Positions 1,169 to 12,467 of a DNA stretch of 51,123 nucleotides are shown one piece after another; within the stretch, counting starts at the first letter, position 1, and every line of letters starts with the position of its first letter. A program made the translations under genes and the position numbers. The stretch lies in NCBI GenBank assembly GCA_000798955.1, contig JTLC01000034.1:1-51123 (forward strand), read 5' to 3'. The notes below the pieces were generated by a model. The model saw nothing but the letters and a program-made list of their open reading frames with translations, searched no databases and was not told the origin of the DNA. Source of the DNA: Firmicutes bacterium ZOR0006 (GTDB lineage: Bacteria; Bacillota_I; Bacilli_A; Culicoidibacterales; ZOR0006).

Positions 1169-1177
1169 TGATATAAT
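1169..1177 (+). promoter_or_regulatory. Extended -10 promoter of the mini-CRISPR RNA
   Basis: TGATATAAT (1169-1177) is a perfect extended -10 (TGnTATAAT). No well-spaced -35 is seen, which is acceptable for extended -10 promoters. The predicted start, about 1184, is only a few bases before the first pseudo-repeat. Confidence 0.65.
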
Positions 1178-1186
1178 CAGATTGTA

Positions 1187-1215
1187 CATAAATCTAACCG
1201 TTTCGGAATTTAAAT
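1187..1215 (+). repeat. Pseudo-repeat 1 of mini-CRISPR
   Basis: Aligned without gaps to the 29-nt array repeat it is identical at 20 positions, including AAATCT, ACC and GGAATTTAAA. The short stem CCA-GTA-TGG of the array repeat is replaced by CCG-TTT-CGG, so both sides changed and pairing is kept. The 3' handle is ATTTAAAT against ATTTAAAC in the array. Confidence 0.8.
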
Positions 1216-1248
1216 TATATATTTTATTTTATTTTTGAAATGAAGACA

Positions 1249-1277
1249 GATGAATCTTACCAATATGGAATTAGGAG
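1249..1277 (+). repeat. Pseudo-repeat 2 of mini-CRISPR
   Basis: It is identical to the array repeat at 20 of 29 positions. AATCTTACCA and TATGGAATT are intact, while the 3' end has turned into AGGAG, the first arm of the terminator. It shares the G-to-A change at repeat position 15 (CCAATATGG) with the last, degenerate array repeat at 12439-12467. Confidence 0.8.
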
Positions 1278-1294
1278 TGGAGCTCCTTTTTTTT
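1273..1294 (+). terminator. Terminator of the mini-CRISPR RNA
   Basis: AGGAGT (1273-1278) pairs with GCTCCT (1282-1287) around a GGA loop. A run of eight T (1287-1294) follows. It insulates the small RNA from the cas operon. Confidence 0.75.
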
Positions 1295-1309: not shown

Positions 1310-1345
1310 CCATATATATTTTATTTTATTTATTCGTTGACTGTA
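1310..1345 (+). promoter_or_regulatory. Predicted Cascade target site (PAM plus protospacer) in the cas promoter
   Basis: CCA (1310-1312) stands where a type I-B PAM should be. 1313-1331 equals the first 19 nt of the mini-CRISPR spacer. A 33-nt protospacer would extend to 1345 and cover the -35 box (1337-1342). The handle-side bases of the RNA (AT) differ from the PAM bases, so the site reads as non-self. Binding here would block RNA polymerase. The AT-only composition of the match is the main caveat. Confidence 0.65.
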
Positions 1346-1375
1346 GGCTCACTTGGGAGTATTATTAAGTCAACG
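1335..1375 (+). promoter_or_regulatory. Perfect 8-bp inverted repeat spanning the cas promoter
   Basis: CGTTGACT (1335-1342, containing the -35 box) and AGTCAACG (1368-1375, at the predicted start) are perfectly complementary across 25 bp. This could be an operator for a repressor or looping dimer. No regulator gene is encoded nearby. Confidence 0.45.
1337..1365 (+). promoter_or_regulatory. Sigma-A promoter of the cas operon
   Basis: TTGACT (1337-1342), a 17-bp spacer and TATTAT (1360-1365) give near-consensus elements. The predicted start is about 1372, leaving a leader of about 140 nt before cas6. Confidence 0.75.
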
Positions 1376-1514: not shown

Positions 1515-2252
1515 ATGAGAATCGCTTGCAAAATTTTATGTCCTAGCCAGCAATTACCGTTAGATATTCGACGAACATGTTTACATTTGATAAAACAGGC
1601 ATTGTCTGAATATGACCAAGAATTATTTTCACAGTTGTACGATCAAGGGAGTAATCGTAAAGGTTTTACATTTTCAACTGGATTAGGAAAAGGGGTTTGC
1701 TTTACAAAAGAATATATTCAATTACAACGTGATTTTTTTGAATTAACAATTAGTAGCGGAAATCTTGAATTGATGATTCATATGATTAACGCATTGCAAA
1801 GTCAAAATGGAAATAAGATTGAAACGAACAGTGGAATAGTTGAAATTGGGAAAGTTCGCATATTGCCAGATATGCAGGAACATATGGCATCGAGAGCGAC
1901 ATACCGCATTTTATCACCTATTCTTGTTCGTCAACACAATCAAGAAACCAAAAAAGATTTTTATTTATCAACTAAGCATGAACACTGGCAAGAGCAATTG
2001 TATCTTAATTTGGCAAATACATTACAAATAGAAACGCCAATTCTAAAACAACTAGTACGATTTCATGTGGAGGATACGAAACGTACAGTCGTTAAATTCT
2101 ATCATCAGTATTTTGAAGCGACAATTGGTAAAATTACAATTGAAGCACCAGTTGAATTTCAAAAATTCTTTTACGAATATGGACTTGGTTCAAAAACATC
2201 AAGTGGTTTTGGGATGCTGACGATTGATGAAAGTGGGCGGAATAATGGGTAA
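1515..2252 (+). CDS. cas6: CRISPR-associated endoribonuclease Cas6
   Basis: The 245-residue length matches Cas6, the RNase that cuts the pre-crRNA inside each repeat and leaves an 8-nt 5' handle. The C-terminal glycine-rich loop YGLGSKTSSGFGML (residues 222-235) is the family signature. His and Tyr residues in the N-terminal half could serve catalysis, but I cannot assign them. A strong GGAGGG site precedes the ATG. It is first in the eight-gene cas operon and overlaps cas8b by 8 nt. Its expected substrates are the array transcript and, if the mini-CRISPR is real, that short RNA too: the stem in pseudo-repeat 1 is kept by paired changes, as expected for a Cas6 substrate. Confidence 0.92.
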   Translation: MRIACKILCPSQQLPLDIRRTCLHLIKQALSEYDQELFSQLYDQGSNRKGFTFSTGLGKGVCFTKEYIQLQRDFFELTISSGNLELMIHMINALQSQNGNKIETNSGIVEIGKVRILPDMQEHMASRATYRILSPILVRQHNQETKKDFYLSTKHEHWQEQLYLNLANTLQIETPILKQLVRFHVEDTKRTVVKFYHQYFEATIGKITIEAPVEFQKFFYEYGLGSKTSSGFGMLTIDESGRNNG

Positions 2253-3771
2253 TTATATTTGGTACAGAAGTGGAGAAATTGTTCGTGATATCGGAATGAT
2301 TTATTTCTATGAATTACTTGAAGCATATCAACAACAGCAACAACAGGAAATAAATATAGAAATGAATGCAAACCATTTGCGAATTAGTGGTGAAGTGGAT
2401 ACAGAAGCTTTTAATCAGTTTTTCCATAATTATGTGATGTTTGAAATGTTTAAAATTGATTTGGTTGTTGCTCTGAAGAATAAGAAAATTCAAGACGATG
2501 TTTTAGTGGCAGTTCAATTACAAACGACATATGAAGATTTGAAAACGTATTGTTTACAAGCAGATGTTCAAGTTCGAAAAGTTTATGAAGCGGAAAGTAA
2601 GAAGGATCAATACTTACCGTATCTCAGAAACTCAGGTAAATTTGGTGCGAATTCTGGTGGTGTAGGGAATTTTAAAAAGAATTTAAAAGAGTTAATTAGA
2701 CTTGTCTTTTCAGCAAACCAATGTCTAGACAATCAAGAAGAACATTGGCAAGAAGTATATGAGCATTATCAGATAGCTGATGAAAATGCTGAAATTACAT
2801 CATTTTGCTCAGTTTGTCACTATGAACCTGTTTCGATGTACGATATTACGCACAAATATAAGCAAGAAATTGTTGAAACATTGAAACCAAATACGAGAAT
2901 TGTTCGTAAAACATCGAAATATTTGTATTCGTTTTTGGGAAGTGAAGGGAATACATACAAAAATTACGGTCAAGTACAGAGTGATGTGTGCTTTACGTGT
3001 GAATTTTTCAATTTGTTATTCTTGTGCTTTGTTAAGATTAGTAAACCGTCATCAGTAATTTTGGCAGATACACTAAAAGAAACAAAACTTTTAAATTATC
3101 GCTATGGTATTAAGAGCACAGAATATACAAAAGAATCATTTTTGTTGAAAATTATCGAACAAAGTCGAGGACGTGCACGAGTTTTTTCAATTGAAACGGA
3201 TGCAAATAAGGGTGTAATTTTACGACTGCAAAATGTTGTGGAAAGTAAGAAAATTATTCAACAATTGCGAATGACAGCTCTAGTTGATAACTATCATTTC
3301 ACAGTTGCTACGAGTGAACAACGCAAATTTTTGAAGGATGCAATTTTTAATGGTAATCAACATGGTGTCAAACAAACATTGTTGGCAAATATCATTCAAC
3401 AAAAAGAAGTTGAATTAACCCAAAATTTACAAACATACCGTTCATATATCATTTGCTTATTGGAGGAAAGAGACGTGGAAAAAACACCGAAACATGGGTA
3501 CTACTACCGAAAATTAGGACAAGAAATACATGCGAAAAATAGTAATCAGCAGACAACGGCATATAAGCTTATTCAATTGTTAAAAGCCGAAAATCGGACA
3601 GAACTTGCTACATTGATGATGCATGTTGTAGTTGGAACAGGCAAAGCACTACCATATAACTTTGCGAATGATGTACTTAACAGTACAGAGCTTGAATTAC
3701 ACTACTACATTTCAGAATTTATCACAGGATTGTTAGGAACAAAGGGAGGAACAGACTATGAAACAAATTAA
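2245..3771 (+). CDS. cas8b: Type I-B Cascade large subunit Cas8b (Cst1-like, CXXC-CXXC)
   Basis: This is the large subunit of the type I-B effector, which reads the PAM and recruits Cas3. Two zinc-ribbon-like pairs are visible, C188-x2-C191 and C249-x2-C252. This is the CXXC...CXXC pattern that names the Cst1 branch (Tneap-type I-B). I chose the ATG at 2245, which is preceded by GGGCGG and overlaps cas6 by 8 nt. A TTG at 2224 is in frame but has no ribosome binding site. The protein has 508 residues from this start. It is not similar to Cas8 of other I-B branches by eye, as is usual for this fast-evolving subunit. The subtype call rests on the cysteine pairs together with neighbouring Cas7 and Cas5. 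Confidence 0.85.
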   Translation: MGNYIWYRSGEIVRDIGMIYFYELLEAYQQQQQQEINIEMNANHLRISGEVDTEAFNQFFHNYVMFEMFKIDLVVALKNKKIQDDVLVAVQLQTTYEDLKTYCLQADVQVRKVYEAESKKDQYLPYLRNSGKFGANSGGVGNFKKNLKELIRLVFSANQCLDNQEEHWQEVYEHYQIADENAEITSFCSVCHYEPVSMYDITHKYKQEIVETLKPNTRIVRKTSKYLYSFLGSEGNTYKNYGQVQSDVCFTCEFFNLLFLCFVKISKPSSVILADTLKETKLLNYRYGIKSTEYTKESFLLKIIEQSRGRARVFSIETDANKGVILRLQNVVESKKIIQQLRMTALVDNYHFTVATSEQRKFLKDAIFNGNQHGVKQTLLANIIQQKEVELTQNLQTYRSYIICLLEERDVEKTPKHGYYYRKLGQEIHAKNSNQQTTAYKLIQLLKAENRTELATLMMHVVVGTGKALPYNFANDVLNSTELELHYYISEFITGLLGTKGGTDYETN

Positions 3772-4714
3772 AGCAATCACACTCACGGTATTAACAGAAT
3801 CACCGATTTTCTTATCGAATGATCAAGGATTTGGAAACTATACACCAGGGAAGAAAGCATTCTACAAAGATGGAAAACATGCAATTACATCAGTAGCGAC
3901 ATTTACATATGAATTACGTCGGCTATTAAAAGAAGAGTTTGGTTGGCAATTAAATGACATCGTTACAAAAGCGAAAAATATGTACTTAGCAGATGTAAAT
4001 GATACGTCAGGACAAAAAATGGAAGCCGATATCTTTGGTTTCTTAATTCCTGATAAGCAAATCAGTAAAACATCGCCATTGCGAGTAATTCCATTTACAT
4101 CAATCCACCCGTTCCAAAATGATACACAGTTAATTACGAATAAAGGATTTTTCAATTTAGATTTTGAACGTAATTATCGTGATGAAAAGGGAAAAGTTTT
4201 AGAAATTGATGCAATTCCACAAACCCAAGCGTTAGCAAATGAAGAAGTTTTTGGAGATTACTATACATATACACTGACAATTGAATTGAATCGAGTAGGT
4301 GTTATCGAAACTGATGGAGAGAAATATTTAATGCCATCACAACGAACATTTTTTGCGAAAGAAAGTCGTTTGAAAGCAGTGCAAGATATTTTACAAGCAT
4401 TGACAATTTTAACTCGTGATATTAAGCATCAAAAAGTACTCTTAAAACCACTTGCGGTCTATGGTGGTGCATTTGCGAGCGCTGTGCCGTACTTTTGGAA
4501 TGATTTTCATTTCAAGAATGGTGAACTCGAGATTGAACGAGCAGTACAAACCCAAAAAGATTACCAACTTGAAGGTGCAATTTTGAGCGTTGATTCACGA
4601 ATTTCAACAACAACGCGTGAAGGTTTAACGGCAGAAACACCAGTAGCAGCAATGATACAACTTGCTAATCGTTTATCAATTGGTGATGATGATTTATGGT
4701 ATGTAAGTGAGTAG
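3758..4714 (+). CDS. cas7: Cascade backbone subunit Cas7 (Cst2/DevR family)
   Basis: At 318 residues it resembles the Cst2/DevR group of Cas7 proteins, whose copies line up along the crRNA spacer. Family-like features are the N-terminal beta strand ITLTVLTESPIFLSNDQG, the segment around residue 45 (TSVATFTYELRRLLKEE), and the glycine-rich AVYGGAFASAVPYFWNDF toward the C-terminus. GGGAGGA (3744-3750) precedes the ATG. The gene overlaps cas8b by 14 nt, so the two are probably translationally coupled. Expected stoichiometry is several copies per complex, but nothing in the sequence (slippage or an internal start) shows how that is achieved. Confidence 0.88.
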   Translation: MKQIKAITLTVLTESPIFLSNDQGFGNYTPGKKAFYKDGKHAITSVATFTYELRRLLKEEFGWQLNDIVTKAKNMYLADVNDTSGQKMEADIFGFLIPDKQISKTSPLRVIPFTSIHPFQNDTQLITNKGFFNLDFERNYRDEKGKVLEIDAIPQTQALANEEVFGDYYTYTLTIELNRVGVIETDGEKYLMPSQRTFFAKESRLKAVQDILQALTILTRDIKHQKVLLKPLAVYGGAFASAVPYFWNDFHFKNGELEIERAVQTQKDYQLEGAILSVDSRISTTTREGLTAETPVAAMIQLANRLSIGDDDLWYVSE

Positions 4715-4722
4715 GTGGTACA

Positions 4723-5526
4723 ATGAAAACACAATTTTTGAGAATTCCATTGTACCAACCATATGCACATTATCGGGAATCAAAAGTCTGCCAAGATGAT
4801 TATATTGCGAGCTTACCATTACCGACACCAGCAACAGTTGCAGGAATGCTTGCATATGTTGCAGATGAAAAATTTAGTGAAACATTGAAAATTAGTGTCT
4901 TGGGCGCTTATCAAACTCGTGATATCCAGTTTATTCGTGGACAAAATGGTGATTTTCATAAACAGTACCAAACGTTTTTGAAAAACAATGCCAAGGTTGA
5001 AGCAATGACACCAACTGACGAATATCCGTTGTATCATCATTTTAAAACTCAGGTTGTTAAAAATCGGATTATGAATTTTGAGGTACTTCAACATGTTGCG
5101 TGTGTGATTTATGTGCAAGCAGACCCCCAAACATTATCGATGCTTGAAAAAGCTTTAAATGAACCGCAACGTTATTTGACACTTGGTCGAAAAGAAGATT
5201 TTGCCTTGATCGGGACATATGAAAATGATCAATTTAACCCCGGAAAAGCTGAAGTTGTCGATGTTGAGATGTTTTCAAACGTTTCGATTGAAACTGCAAT
5301 TAGCGAGCAACTATGTGTAAAAAATACATATGTACCTAAAAGCGAAGAGTCACTTTTATCAGGTGTATTATATCGTTTGCCATATAGTTATCGTGATTTA
5401 ACAGCCCAACGAAAAGACCGAAAATACAAGTATCAGTGGTCTGTATATGTGCGAGATGGCTATTATCCAAGTGGTCAAGTTTATCGTTATCAAACAGAGT
5501 GCTTTCAGTTGATTGGAGATGAATAA
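4723..5526 (+). CDS. cas5: Cascade subunit Cas5 (Cas5t-like)
   Basis: This 267-residue RAMP protein caps the 5' handle of the crRNA in type I-B Cascade. The N-terminal segment LRIPLYQPYAHYRES followed by LPLPTPATVAGMLAYV has the Cas5 pattern in which a conserved Pro-Thr-Pro loop precedes the first helix. GGTGG (4713-4717) precedes the ATG, 8 nt after the cas7 stop. The order cas8b-cas7-cas5 is the standard effector cassette. No Cas6-like catalytic role is expected, because a separate cas6 is present. Confidence 0.87.
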   Translation: MKTQFLRIPLYQPYAHYRESKVCQDDYIASLPLPTPATVAGMLAYVADEKFSETLKISVLGAYQTRDIQFIRGQNGDFHKQYQTFLKNNAKVEAMTPTDEYPLYHHFKTQVVKNRIMNFEVLQHVACVIYVQADPQTLSMLEKALNEPQRYLTLGRKEDFALIGTYENDQFNPGKAEVVDVEMFSNVSIETAISEQLCVKNTYVPKSEESLLSGVLYRLPYSYRDLTAQRKDRKYKYQWSVYVRDGYYPSGQVYRYQTECFQLIGDE

Positions 5527-5527
5527 T

Positions 5528-7813
5528 ATGCAAAGAATTTTAGCGAAATCCGAGAAACATTCAGCAAATAATCAAGCTGAATCTTTAGTTGAACATACGC
5601 AACGAGCACTTGATGTTTTTCAAGAAATAAAAAAACTAATTATGTTTGATCCGCGAGATGAAAAAATTATTTATTATGCGATTTTATTTCATGACTTTGG
5701 CAAAATAAACTTAAATTTCCAAAGAAAATTACAAGGTGAACAACAAGAAAATGAGACTGGTCATAATTTTTTATCACCAACGGTTATTGATTCGGTATTA
5801 AATCAAGCTGGCATTAAGTTAGAGAATGACGATAAGAATCTATTGATCAAGGCAATCATTTTGCATCATGGTAATTTTGAAAAACACTTAGAAATGAATT
5901 CAACGACAGTTCAAAACGCTATTTTCCATGATGTTAAGCCACTCCTTCAATCTGGGGAATTTGATATTCAAGAAATTGAAACGTTTTTATTCGTACAATT
6001 TGGACAAAAAATTTCTTTAGTAGAGGTAAGTAATAATCTTGATTACCGCTATTTTCAAAATTATATGACGGCAAGTGTTGAAGCGAATGAAACCCGTTAT
6101 ATTGTCATTAAAGGAATGCTGAATTTAGTTGATCATATTGCTTCGAGTATACCATCGGAGCAAGCATGGCAGTATAGCTTTACGGATTCGCAAGTTGAGT
6201 CGCTAGATTTCTTACAAACCTTACAACAACGCTTAGGAGTTTCAAATCTTGCATATAATCAAATCCAAAAAAATTTACTGGAACCTGAATTTCAAGATAC
6301 CTCAGTTGTTTTGACAAAAGCATTCACAGGTGGTGGTAAAACCATCGCAGATGATTGTTTGAGAGCAAAGAAAAAATTTTATCTTGCACCAAACCGCATT
6401 AGTGCGATGAGTTTTTACGAACAAGCGTGTGAAAAATATCCTAAAGAAGCTGTTGGTGTTGTACATGGAGATATTTCAATGTATAGTAGCAAAAATCAAA
6501 AAGAAGCTACTCCTGATACTTTAGTAATTGAATACTGGAAAATTCAGGCAACGAGAAATTTTGGACAACCGTATATATTAGCGACTGTAGACCAATTGGC
6601 TACAGCGATGTTCAAATATCCAAGTTACGAGAAAGTATTTGCAGCGGTAGCGGAGGCAAGAATTTGCTTAGATGAAGTACATTTGTTGAATCCAAGAATG
6701 TTTTTGATTTTTATGTATTTTATGGAGTATTGTCAAAAACACTTAAATACAAAGTTTCATTTAATGACAGCAACATTACCGAAACAGTATGAAAAACAAT
6801 TATTCAATCGTTTTCCAGAGCTGAAATGTAATGAGGCGAATCCAACTATGGAAGAGACGAAACTTATTCGGGTACAACCAGCACCTAAAAAAGCAACAGT
6901 TGTTTCACTTGTTGGGGAACATGAGCAGTCACCGATTTTGATTATCCGAAATACAATTGCTGATGCAATTTTAACCTATAAACAAGTTAAGGAAACTTAT
7001 CCTAATCGAGATGTTCGATGCCTGCATAGTCAATTTATGAGCCAAGATAAAAAAGCAAAGTTTTCTGAAATTTTGCGGGAAAATCCAAATAGTATTTGGG
7101 TAACAACACAAGTAGTTGAAATTGCGCTTGATATTGATTTTCCAGTGATTATTTCTGATTTAGCACCACTTGAAGCAATGATTCAACGAATGGGACGCTG
7201 TAATCGACACAATAAAGTATTGGTCGGTCAATTTTATTATTTACCGATTGAAAAAATAACACCATATCGTGAAGAACAACAGGCAAAGTTGTTGAAGCAG
7301 ACGGAAGAACAACTACAGCTTTTAGCCGATCAACAGCAAGTGACAATGGCGCAGCGAAAAGATTTGCTTGAAAACTATTATGAATTAGATGTTGTTGATA
7401 CATACTATCAAAAGTCATTAGCTCAAGCAGAACAAAAAATTAGAGAACTTTTTGGTGTGACACAACGTAAAGTTGAGTTGAAAGCTGAGGATTTATTGTT
7501 TGCCTACGAACCATATCGTGAAATTGCTGATAGTAAAAAAGAAGCTTCTCAATATTTTCGTGGTGGTGATATTCAGGTTGAAATTTATCTTCGTTTGACC
7601 CAAGCGCAAGTCATTGACCGTGAGCATGCTGTGAGTATCAGTATGGGGAATTTTTATTTACTGAAGCAAGCCGGTTTATTATTACAACAACGATATATTT
7701 GGGTGTTGGATCTAACGGAGTATTCAAAAGAAGTGTGCTATAGTCATGATTTTGGATTAGAACTTAATCGTGAAAAACTGAAGCAATTAGCGACAAGTGG
7801 AATTATGTTTTAA
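5528..7813 (+). CDS. cas3: Cas3 helicase-nuclease (HD and SF2 domains fused)
   Basis: Cas3 is the nuclease recruited when Cascade has formed a full R-loop. It nicks and unwinds target DNA processively. From the ATG at 5528 (GGAG at 5515-5518) the protein has 761 residues. In-frame TTG (5513) and ATG (5519) starts would overlap cas5. The N-terminal HD nuclease shows H23, HDFGK (H55, D56) and LHHGNFEKH. The helicase shows TGGGKT (267-272), DEVH (382-385), LMTATLP, and IQRMGRCNRHNK as motif VI. All key residues are present, so the system looks able to interfere. The gene follows cas5 by one base and precedes cas4. Confidence 0.95.
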   Translation: MQRILAKSEKHSANNQAESLVEHTQRALDVFQEIKKLIMFDPRDEKIIYYAILFHDFGKINLNFQRKLQGEQQENETGHNFLSPTVIDSVLNQAGIKLENDDKNLLIKAIILHHGNFEKHLEMNSTTVQNAIFHDVKPLLQSGEFDIQEIETFLFVQFGQKISLVEVSNNLDYRYFQNYMTASVEANETRYIVIKGMLNLVDHIASSIPSEQAWQYSFTDSQVESLDFLQTLQQRLGVSNLAYNQIQKNLLEPEFQDTSVVLTKAFTGGGKTIADDCLRAKKKFYLAPNRISAMSFYEQACEKYPKEAVGVVHGDISMYSSKNQKEATPDTLVIEYWKIQATRNFGQPYILATVDQLATAMFKYPSYEKVFAAVAEARICLDEVHLLNPRMFLIFMYFMEYCQKHLNTKFHLMTATLPKQYEKQLFNRFPELKCNEANPTMEETKLIRVQPAPKKATVVSLVGEHEQSPILIIRNTIADAILTYKQVKETYPNRDVRCLHSQFMSQDKKAKFSEILRENPNSIWVTTQVVEIALDIDFPVIISDLAPLEAMIQRMGRCNRHNKVLVGQFYYLPIEKITPYREEQQAKLLKQTEEQLQLLADQQQVTMAQRKDLLENYYELDVVDTYYQKSLAQAEQKIRELFGVTQRKVELKAEDLLFAYEPYREIADSKKEASQYFRGGDIQVEIYLRLTQAQVIDREHAVSISMGNFYLLKQAGLLLQQRYIWVLDLTEYSKEVCYSHDFGLELNREKLKQLATSGIMF

Positions 7814-7839
7814 ATAAGTCATAAAAGAAGGTGGAATTT

Positions 7840-8331
7840 TTGGCAGTCAGGGGTCTAGATATTTATTACTATTTTATTTGTAAACGTAAACTTTGGCTTG
7901 CAGCACATGATCAGCAAATGGAACAAGATAACCAAGACGTACAGCTTGGAAAAATTATTGATAGTCGAACTTATCGATATGAGCGTAAACATATTCAAGT
8001 AGACGAGCATATTAACATTGATTTTCTTCAGAATTGGAAAATAATTCATGAAATAAAAAAATCTAAAAAATTTGAAGAGGCTTCAGTTTGGCAGATTAAG
8101 TACTATATTTATTATTTGGCACAGCGAGGTGTTCAAATTGAAGAAGCTTTTATCGACTATCCTGAATTTCGTGAACGAACTGAAGTAGAATATACGGATG
8201 TGGATACGATAGAAATTGAAAAAGTGACTCGAGAAATTGAGTCACTGAAATTACAAGCACATATTCCGAAATTTGAAAAATTATCATATTGCCAAAAATG
8301 TGCATATTTTGATTATTGTGGGGTAGAGTAA
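7840..8331 (+). CDS. cas4: CRISPR-associated exonuclease Cas4
   Basis: Cas4 is a RecB-like iron-sulfur nuclease that trims prespacers and selects those with a PAM during adaptation. The TTG start at 7840 has AGAAGGTGG (7826-7834) at good spacing. The in-frame GTG at 7831 lies inside that ribosome binding site and is less likely. The protein has 163 residues. Seen: an N-terminal cysteine in YFICKRKLW, a C-terminal C-x2-C-x5-C cluster for the 4Fe-4S site, the HEIKKSKK nuclease motif and QIKYYIYYL, the QxxxY motif. The stop overlaps the cas1 start as TAATG. Confidence 0.9.
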   Translation: MAVRGLDIYYYFICKRKLWLAAHDQQMEQDNQDVQLGKIIDSRTYRYERKHIQVDEHINIDFLQNWKIIHEIKKSKKFEEASVWQIKYYIYYLAQRGVQIEEAFIDYPEFRERTEVEYTDVDTIEIEKVTREIESLKLQAHIPKFEKLSYCQKCAYFDYCGVE

Positions 8332-9329
8332 TGAAAAATTTTTATATGTTTCGTAATGGGGAGTTGAAACGACAAGATGATAACTTACTTGTTGTTAGTT
8401 CCGAAGGAATCAAAAAGCAAGTACCAATCGAACAACTTAAAACTATTTATGCCTTCGGGGAAGTAACAATAAATAGTTCGGCAATTCAATTTTTAGCAAA
8501 ACATGAAGTTGTGACACATTTTTTCAATTATTATGGATTTTATACAAGTACGCTATATCCAAAAGAACAGCGAGTTTCAGGTGATTTATTAATTAAGCAA
8601 GTCAATTCAATTCAAAATGAGATGCAGCGAAATGAAGTAGCGAAACAGTTTATCGAAGCGGCTGCATTTAATATGCACCGTAATTTGATGTATTATAAAC
8701 GTAAAGGAAAAGCGGTTGAATCTTTCTTGGAAGAAATTGAAACGTTACGCCATCATCTTCACACAGTAACAACTGTTCCAGAAATTATGGGTGTTGAGGG
8801 TAATATTCGTAAAACGTATTATCATGCTTGGAATGTAATCTTAGCAAAAGAGCCGTTCCACTTTGATATTCGGACAAAGCGTCCGCCGAAAAATGAAATA
8901 AATACACTTATTTCATTTCTTAACACACTTTTATATACTACGTGTTTATCTGAAATTTATAAAACACCGCTAAATCCAACACTAAGCTACTTGCATGAAG
9001 CATCGGATCGAAGATTTTCACTATGCTTAGATGTATCTGAAGTTTTTAAACCTTTGATTGTTGATCATATTATTTTCCATTTGATTAATCATCACATCAT
9101 TACAGAACATGATTTTGAACCACATTCAAATGGCTTATACTTAAAGGATGAAGCTAGAAAAAAAGTGGTACAAGCGTTTGATGAACATTTAATGCAAACA
9201 ATTATGCATCGTGACTTAAAGAGAAAAGTTAGTTATCAGCATTTAATTCGTTTGGAATTATATAAGTTGATGAAAGGTTTGAATGAACCTGAAAATTATC
9301 GATATACTGGATTTAGGATGTGGTGGTAA
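8331..9329 (+). CDS. cas1: CRISPR integrase Cas1
   Basis: Cas1 forms the metal-dependent integrase with Cas2 that inserts new spacers at the leader end of the array. The 332-residue protein starts at the ATG overlapping the cas4 stop, with GGGG (8320-8323) upstream. The metal ligands are recognisable: E156 in GVEGN, H222 in YLHEAS, and the acidic pair D234/E237 in LDVSEVFKP. Its position directly before cas2 and the leader is standard. All catalytic residues are intact and the array has near-identical leader-side repeats, so adaptation is probably functional. Confidence 0.95.
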   Translation: MKNFYMFRNGELKRQDDNLLVVSSEGIKKQVPIEQLKTIYAFGEVTINSSAIQFLAKHEVVTHFFNYYGFYTSTLYPKEQRVSGDLLIKQVNSIQNEMQRNEVAKQFIEAAAFNMHRNLMYYKRKGKAVESFLEEIETLRHHLHTVTTVPEIMGVEGNIRKTYYHAWNVILAKEPFHFDIRTKRPPKNEINTLISFLNTLLYTTCLSEIYKTPLNPTLSYLHEASDRRFSLCLDVSEVFKPLIVDHIIFHLINHHIITEHDFEPHSNGLYLKDEARKKVVQAFDEHLMQTIMHRDLKRKVSYQHLIRLELYKLMKGLNEPENYRYTGFRMWW

Positions 9330-9608
9330 ATGTACATAATTTTAGTGTATGATATTAATCAAAGTGAAGAAGGTACAAAAACGTGGAGACGTTGCTATAA
9401 AATTTGTAAGCAATACTTACATCATGTCCAAAATTCGGTTTTTGAAGGGGAAATATCCCCTGCACAATTGAGGGCTTTAGAATATGACTTGAAAGTACAT
9501 TTACGTGATGACTTAGATTCCATTATTGTTTATAAAACAGAACAAATGAAAAGTATTAAGCGTCATTTTTGGGCGAAACAAGATGATGCAACAGATAATT
9601 TTTTCTAA
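9330..9608 (+). CDS. cas2: CRISPR adaptation protein Cas2
   Basis: At 92 residues it has the ferredoxin-like fold of Cas2, with the N-terminal strand MYIILVYDIN carrying the conserved Asp at position 8. The start codon touches the cas1 stop (TAAATG), so the genes are coupled. Cas2 bridges two Cas1 dimers in the integrase. It is the last gene of the cas operon. No terminator stands between it and the leader, so some read-through into the array is possible. Confidence 0.93.
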   Translation: MYIILVYDINQSEEGTKTWRRCYKICKQYLHHVQNSVFEGEISPAQLRALEYDLKVHLRDDLDSIIVYKTEQMKSIKRHFWAKQDDATDNFF

Positions 9609-9792: not shown

Positions 9793-12467
9793 ATCAAATC
9801 TTACCAGTATGGAATTTAAACATTTTGGGAGTCCTTTTTTTGTCTGCCCAACTATCGATCAAATCTTACCAGTATGGAATTTAAACTGTGGTGTCGTTTC
9901 GTCCATATGCACTTCCGCCACATCAAATCTTACCAGTATGGAATTTAAACGATAGTTTGCTTGATTATTTACAAACAGATGTCAAAATCAAATCTTACCA
10001 GTATGGAATTTAAACTTTTTAATAGTTCCAAGTGTAAATGTATTGTATGCAATCAAATCTTACCAGTATGGAATTTAAACGATTTAGCCGATGCTATTCA
10101 AGGTGGCCGTTTTGAATCAAATCTTACCAGTATGGAATTTAAACTCTAGTCTCTACACGTTCCTAGAATTTCTTCATAGGATCAAATCTTACCAGTATGG
10201 AATTTAAACGCACTTAAAGCTGAATATCTCTCAAAGTCCCAACGATCAAATCTTACCAGTATGGAATTTAAACAATATGTGCTTTCAGAACCGTCTTTAT
10301 GATCAGCAGAATTAAATCTTACCAGTATGGAATTTAAACCTGGATGCGATGTATCGTAAGATTGATGAAATTGTAATCAAATCTTACCAGTATGGAATTT
10401 AAACGCTTGTAAGACTAGATTATCAATTCGTCCATCTTGATCAAATCTTACCAGTATGGAATTTAAACGAAGATTGTATTTCCATCCGGAATATAATTTT
10501 GCGAATCAAATCTTACCAGTATGGAATTTAAACTTTATTGTCTTTAAGAGATTGAATGGCCAATGCTATCAAATCTTACCAGTATGGAATTTAAACGCTG
10601 AAATAACACTTGAAGGAATGGCGATAATGCCATCAAATCTTACCAGTATGGAATTTAAACTCTGTAAGAAGCGTGGATCAGCTTCGCTTCTCCACTCATC
10701 AAATCTTACCAGTATGGAATTTAAACTTGGAATTTCGACTGCTTGAAGAATATCACAGCGATCAAATCTTACCAGTATGGAATTTAAACGTTCTGCGTTC
10801 AAACTCTTTCGCAACCGTGTCTTCCATCAAATCTTACCAGTATGGAATTTAAACGGCAATCCTTGGAACAGCTTTTGAGTCAGGTTAGCATCAAATCTTA
10901 CCAGTATGGAATTTAAACGCAGGATTTAAGGTGAAAGACCTGATCAGCATTTGTATCAAATCTTACCAGTATGGAATTTAAACGTGTATGCTTTGGAGGA
11001 GAGAATTTAGTGATCAACATCAAATCTTACCAGTATGGAATTTAAACAAAGTAGCAGTTGAGATTGATTTGCTGCTTGATGAATCAAATCTTACCAGTAT
11101 GGAATTTAAACATTAGCGAACAAAAAACTACCCTACGGACCCCCTGATCAAATCTTACCAGTATGGAATTTAAACAAGGAAGCAGCGCACTTGTACATTG
11201 TCATTAACGAATCAAATCTTACCAGTATGGAATTTAAACGTGGAATTTCGCTAATAATCGTGCTTCCCAAATTGTATCAAATCTTACCAGTATGGAATTT
11301 AAACGTCGAAGGTGGCGACATCTTAATCCGGCGCCTAGAATCAAATCTTACCAGTATGGAATTTAAACGAGATTGCTAATGTTGACAAAGACCTCCAAGC
11401 CAAATCAAATCTTACCAGTATGGAATTTAAACTTTTTTATTTTCTCCTCATTTCCGAAAGTTGCTCAATCAAATCTTACCAGTATGGAATTTAAACTTGT
11501 GACTGCTGCCGTTCCCATTCCGACCAATGGTAATCAAATCTTACCAGTATGGAATTTAAACCAGAAATGCTTTGGAGTGAGTTTCAGGCACTGCTTGATC
11601 AAATCTTACCAGTATGGAATTTAAACGGAAACAACTTGTAAACATGGAAGCGGATATTTCATATCAAATCTTACCAGTATGGAATTTAAACTACGAATTT
11701 GGAATTGTTGTCGTTCTTCTTCGACTTATCAAATCTTACCAGTATGGAATTTAAACATTTTCGAGAAAACGTTCATCTATGATTCGTACGCAATCAAATC
11801 TTACCAGTATGGAATTTAAACTTATGTGTTGAGCATCATAATCAAGCACACACAAAAATCAAATCTTACCAGTATGGAATTTAAACTCTTCCGCAATGGC
11901 ATCAACATTTCGTTTAGTCGCATCAAATCTTACCAGTATGGAATTTAAACTCGAGCGTGACGACATCATTGATTGCTACTGCACGATCAAATCTTACCAG
12001 TATGGAATTTAAACGTTTATCAGGCTGGACTAAGAATGATTGATTGGAAGATCAAATCTTACCAGTATGGAATTTAAACTTTAGATCAGTTGTTACTTAC
12101 TGCTCAGATGGAAGAATCAAATCTTACCAGTATGGAATTTAAACCTTTTTTAACATGGTTTTGCACTTCTAACTCAAATATCAAATCTTACCAGTATGGA
12201 ATTTAAACTTGTCTTCCCGTTCTGGTCAGTTAACAGCATATCTTATCAAATCTTACCAGTATGGAATTTAAACTCAACTAATTTTTCAAAAGTTAAAGCA
12301 CCAACCGCATCAAATCTTACCAGTATGGAATTTAAACCTAGAAATTACCCATGATTATCTGCGGGGAAAATGGATCAAATCTTACCAGTATGGAATTTAA
12401 ACGAAGAAACTTGCTGCCTCCTTGATGACAAATGTCGCATCAAATCTTACCAATATGGAAAATTATT
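9793..12467 (+). CRISPR. CRISPR array, 42 repeats and 41 spacers, type I-B
   Basis: The 29-nt repeat begins ATCAAATCTTACC and ends GGAATTTAAAC. Spacers are 34-37 nt, mostly 35 or 36. The last eight bases, ATTTAAAC, resemble the ATTGAAAC-type 5' handle of I-B crRNAs, so the array is transcribed on the plus strand, with cas2 and the leader upstream. All repeats are alike except number 9 (10311-10339, third base T) and the last (12439-12467), which decays after GGAA as expected at the trailer end. No two spacers look alike by eye. I saw no spacer matching elsewhere in this window, but could not search phage sequences. No terminator is evident after the array. Confidence 0.98.

Follow-up and report, generated by a model that had tools for sequence, protein, structure and literature searches.

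The window analyzed here, a 51,123-nt stretch of DNA from Firmicutes bacterium ZOR0006, contains an intact type I-B CRISPR-Cas operon, in which all eight cas reading frames are open and hence the cognate effector complex and Cas6 are intact, together with a main CRISPR array (Table 1). In addition, a stand-alone mini-CRISPR lies between a nitroreductase-family gene (486-1124) and cas6. It consists of one spacer between two diverged copies of the array repeat (ATCAAATCTTACCAGTATGGAATTTAAAC), termed psi-repeat 1 (psiR1) and psi-repeat 2 (psiR2), both of which align with that repeat ungapped and in the same orientation, and it has a candidate promoter element and a terminator.

Table 1. Features of the mini-CRISPR, its target and the adjacent CRISPR-Cas locus (positions in the window).
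Feature	Position	Strand	Description
Extended -10 element of mini-CRISPR	1169-1177	+	TGATATAAT, read in the sequence; predicted RNA start ~1184
psiR1	1187-1215	+	CATAAATCTAACCGTTTCGGAATTTAAAT; 20/29 to array repeat
Single mini-CRISPR spacer	1216-1248	+	33 nt, between psiR1 and psiR2
psiR2	1249-1277	+	GATGAATCTTACCAATATGGAATTAGGAG; 20/29 to array repeat
Intrinsic terminator	1273-1294	+	AGGAGT-GGA-GCTCCT, 6-bp stem and T run
PAM-like triplet	1310-1312	+	CCA, directly 5' of target
Target protospacer	1313-1345	+	19/19 on seed side, then 5/14
Predicted cas operon promoter	1337-1365	+	TTGACT-17-TATTAT; 10/12 consensus matches
Type I-B operon, intact	1515-9608	+	cas6, cas8b, cas7, cas5, cas3, cas4, cas1, cas2
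Main CRISPR array	9793-12467	+	41 near-identical 29-nt repeats and a degenerate terminal repeat (12439-12467)

Anatomy of the mini-CRISPR

The two psi-repeats have diverged in different places. In psiR1 the 5' handle is retained, with ATTTAAAT at 1208-1215 matching the array handle ATTTAAAC at 7 of 8 positions, and the 3' triplet is AAT. In psiR2 the retained part lies upstream of where Cas6 presumably cuts (19/20 over positions 5-24), while its last 5 nt form part of the terminator stem. The spacer is slightly shorter than those of the array (33 vs 34-37 nt). Such a pair of repeats was never reached by chance. Against the observed score of 20/29, the weaker copy of a pair at array-like spacing scored at most 18/29 when the 48 kb outside the array was simulated 200 times with an order-2 model, and the best pair reached 17/29 when only the intergenic region was simulated, 5000 times. 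Moreover, when the 24-nt core of the repeat was searched in the 1.97-Mb genome with up to three mismatches, it matched only the 41 array copies and the psiR1 and psiR2 sites, and a reversed control gave no matches. An 18-nt stretch of psiR2, which includes CCAATATGGAA, is identical at all 18 positions to part of the degenerate terminal repeat of the array, hinting that psiR2 may be derived from the array end.

The extended -10 element lacks a good -35 at a distance of 16-18 nt, which is why it is absent from the promoter-scan list, and the terminator scan found one terminator at the mini-CRISPR where 0.1 were expected. The earlier note, which had reported two diverged, ungapped repeat copies around a 33-nt spacer, a hairpin and T run at the second copy and nothing coding within the unit, is thus correct in its coordinates and identity counts and in the hairpin, and an ORF scan found no convincing frame inside the unit. 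A search of Rfam gave no match above threshold, and the RNA as a whole has no significant stable fold (z -0.8); a stable fold is not required of a crRNA-like RNA.

Spacer match to the cas promoter region

The first 19 nt of the mini-CRISPR spacer (TATATATTTTATTTTATTT) occur exactly, and on the same strand, at 1313-1331, a match that was absent from the earlier note, while only 5 of the distal 14 nt are identical to the target. The -35 hexamer (1337-1342) of what is, by prediction, the only strong forward promoter before cas6 falls inside the footprint of this protospacer. The 16-nt seed occurs at two sites in the 1.97-Mb genome, the spacer and the target, and random 33-mers of the window reached a longest match of 10 nt. 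The target has a low-complexity, AT-rich sequence, and under an order-3 model of the spacer itself a 19-nt prefix match arose in 6 of 10,000 draws. A perfect 8-bp inverted repeat, CGTTGACT/AGTCAACG, has one arm over the -35 of the cas promoter (1335-1342) and the other over its predicted start (1368-1375), and might serve as an operator for a protein, besides the site targeted by the RNA.

The CCA beside the target fits the PAMs known from other I-B systems, for which CCN/YCN is documented in Clostridium and C. difficile, where AAT is non-functional (PMC8406132, PMC8482600). As psiR1 ends in this same AAT, the mini-CRISPR gene should not target itself. The PAM of the system at hand could not be derived from its own array, since searches of phage, plasmid and IMG/VR collections with the array spacers turned up no convincing protospacer. 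Spacer 2 (9887-9921) weakly resembles mobV relaxase genes of Gram-positive plasmids (87.5%) and spacer 23 (11240-11275) the coat gene of phage SpaA1 (86%); these similarities are of 86-93% over most of the spacer and are flanked by ATA and CTT.

The same cas6-proximal position is occupied by a mini-CRISPR unit in two further I-B-like systems of the same class, those of genomes G318 and G553, whose spacers differ. Both were found first by reading, in G318 of the flank, and then by a systematic scan. The G318 unit is on the minus strand of L013 and divergent from cas6. It comprises an extended -10 (TTGTGATATAAT, identical to that of the window), a psiR1 ending in TTGGAATGTAAAT, a spacer of only 19 nt (vs 36 nt in the G318 array), a psiR2 and a terminator hairpin. 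Its spacer has two adjacent targets upstream of cas6 (L013 3427-3480), both behind CCT, one of them mismatched within the first 17 nt at position 6 only and the other at positions 5 and 6. The G553 unit, on the minus strand of L052, is preceded by the extended -10 TATGCTATAAT, and its psiR2 is not clearly defined. The G553 target is 80 nt before cas6 and behind TTG rather than CCN, and position 6 is again the sole mismatch in the first 17 nt. In type I Cascades, the base at position 6 does not stay in the duplex of guide and target but is flipped out. All three spacers pair from position 1 with the region upstream of their own cas6, and in each case the PAM side faces away from cas6. Cas6 of G318 has 46% identity to Cas6 of G553, and hence the two units may share an ancestor. 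Between the target sites and cas6 of G318 there are two head-to-tail copies of TGATAAGACAAAATGTAAGCGCTA (L013 3478-3525), possibly an operator, and elsewhere in the G318 genome there is a 39-nt sequence related to the cas6-proximal end that adjoins them.

To be positive in the scan, a locus had to have a repeat-like handle (at least 10/12) and to match at every one of the 15 readable positions among the first 18. By this measure the window, G318 and G553 are positive, or 3 of 10 loci compared with 0 of 9000 simulated regions. Conversely, 7 of the 10 upstream regions of I-B-like cas6 genes have no such unit, and pair scans for degenerate repeats in other relatives gave only noise. In G001, the one other genome of the genus examined, the nitroreductase, aroQ and pepQ neighbors are present and the syntenic site has neither a cas locus nor a mini-CRISPR, so that mini-CRISPR and cas genes occur or are missing jointly. 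This G001 site (L045 1726-2260) lacks the cas locus, the array and a glutathione-peroxidase-like gene, and a 92-aa ORF lies between its nitroreductase and aroQ genes. A contig search of genomes revealed no close relatives by Cas6 or Cas8b, and in class and phylum samples the Cas8b family PDLC01144 was convincing in this genome only.

Proposed role and alternative explanations

The mini-CRISPR is very probably the gene of a Cas-regulating RNA (CreR) by which the cas operon represses itself until Cascade is taken away. Such a regulator, which the earlier note had already suggested for this I-B system, should have a spacer that partially matches the promoter of its cognate cas operon beside a PAM, and a match of this kind does exist at the predicted promoter, behind the PAM-like CCA. 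That it is partial is also to be expected, as Cascade would be guided to the promoter to repress it and not to cut it. In the three systems the spacer and its target differ while the pairing register is kept, and this comparative evidence indicates that guides of the CreR type are maintained for pairing with the promoter.

From the anatomy of the unit, the spacer match and its uniqueness, and the recurrence of the same logic in two other systems, we infer the following sequence of transcription, processing, binding, repression and derepression. An RNA would be transcribed from ~1184 to ~1294 and cut by Cas6 in psiR1 to give a product starting with AUUUAAAU and followed by the 33-nt guide, with its 3' end generated either by a Cas6 cut in psiR2 or by the terminator. 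Once part of the Cas5-7-8b complex (Cascade), this RNA would bind 1313-1331 beside CCA, and the bound complex would sit on the -35 of the cas6-cas2 promoter and sterically block RNA polymerase. Cas3 would not be licensed because pairing stops after 19 nt. Autorepression would then be relieved when array crRNAs or anti-CRISPRs draw Cascade away.

A different function for the same anatomy would be that of a CreA-type antitoxin of a CreTA/CrePA module, which would mainly repress not the cas operon but a small toxin (RNA or peptide) whose gene lies in the ~140-nt leader from the target promoter to cas6. The mechanism is common to CreA and CreR, the target promoter lies ~150 nt before cas6, and the leader does contain a frame of 43 codons (1353-1484) that starts with TTG and has a hydrophobic end. 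However, this frame begins upstream of the predicted RNA start (~1372) and its internal GTG has no ribosome-binding site, there is no ATG-start ORF of at least 20 codons between the target and cas6, and no comparable frame was seen on reading the leaders of G318 and G553. Furthermore, the leader has no terminator, so any leader transcript would continue into cas6. As the only frames seen under the targeted promoter are weak, have no ATG start and lack a ribosome-binding site, and no small gene from the target to cas6 is convincing, a CreA-type antitoxin is considered very unlikely.

The same degeneracy of the repeats might instead reflect decay, where a solo array would once have taken up a spacer from the cas promoter, and its repeats and distal spacer would then have eroded under autoimmunity, leaving a functionless remnant. 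The resemblance of psiR2 to the degenerate last repeat of the array and the loss of the match in the distal half of the spacer could be read in this way, but the loss is not random, since it has erased the distal half and spared the psiR1 handle, the Cas6-proximal part of psiR2 and all 19 seed-side nt. A promoter element and a terminator are in place, the same anatomy and seed-limited match are found in two other systems, and with an intact cas operon a useless, PAM-flanked, self-targeting seed would be expected to be lost. Decay is therefore highly improbable, and an eroded array end, a reading against which the earlier note had also decided, was likewise set aside. There is even less to be said for a chance AT-rich similarity between spacer and promoter region, with the mini-array serving another target. 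The matched stretch (TATATATTTTATTTTATTT) is indeed low in complexity, but genome-wide its seed is confined to two sites, the match starts precisely with spacer position 1, beside CCA and at a promoter, random 33-mers fall well short of it, and the scan result, with three positive loci and none among the simulated regions, also makes coincidence very unlikely. Overall, the probability of chance similarity is close to negligible.

With the mini-CRISPR thus best explained as a CreR gene, a more tentative and somewhat doubtful extension is that all three units form a bacterial I-B CreR group whose members avoid self-cleavage by different routes, with a mismatch at position 6 that is both tolerated and recurrent. 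One route might be a seed-only match of 17-19 nt within a spacer of near full length, as in the window (33 nt), and another a shortened spacer, as in G318 (19 nt), that might build a truncated Cascade capable only of binding.

Comparison with known systems

CreR is already known and is reported as widespread; according to reviews it autorepresses I-B, I-E and V-A systems, and repression is relieved by crRNA abundance or by anti-CRISPRs (PMC12737573, PMC13131331, PMC12948488). What is possibly new here are the shortened spacer of G318, its double target and the recurrent mismatch at position 6. The unit in the window offers a clear, proposed circuit of RNA-based autorepression that lends itself to direct testing, in a bacterial I-B system from a lineage that has been sampled only sparsely, and two parallels of divergent sequence are known from the same class. 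Taken together, the three units are also relevant to the question of how a PAM-flanked match to the cell's own DNA can persist without self-cleavage.

Like CreR, the unit is a degenerate-repeat mini-CRISPR beside a cas operon that would encode a crRNA-like RNA, its spacer partially matches the predicted cognate cas promoter, and it is probably not coupled to a toxin gene, there being no convincing candidate between the target and cas6, although a small toxin RNA keeps a low probability. It differs in that its seed-side match is long (19 nt) and its psiR2 doubles as a terminator stem. With the CreA of I-B CreTA/CrePA modules it has in common the degenerate repeat-spacer-repeat structure and, by prediction, Cascade-guided promoter repression through partial pairing, whereas downstream of its target neither a toxin RNA nor a toxin peptide is convincing, and the targeted promoter is predicted to drive cas6-cas2. 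A comparable logic is found in type II-A systems, where a natural long form of the tracrRNA with a partial match represses its own cas promoter, although that circuit uses Cas9 and the long tracrRNA in place of Cas6, Cascade and a mini-CRISPR.
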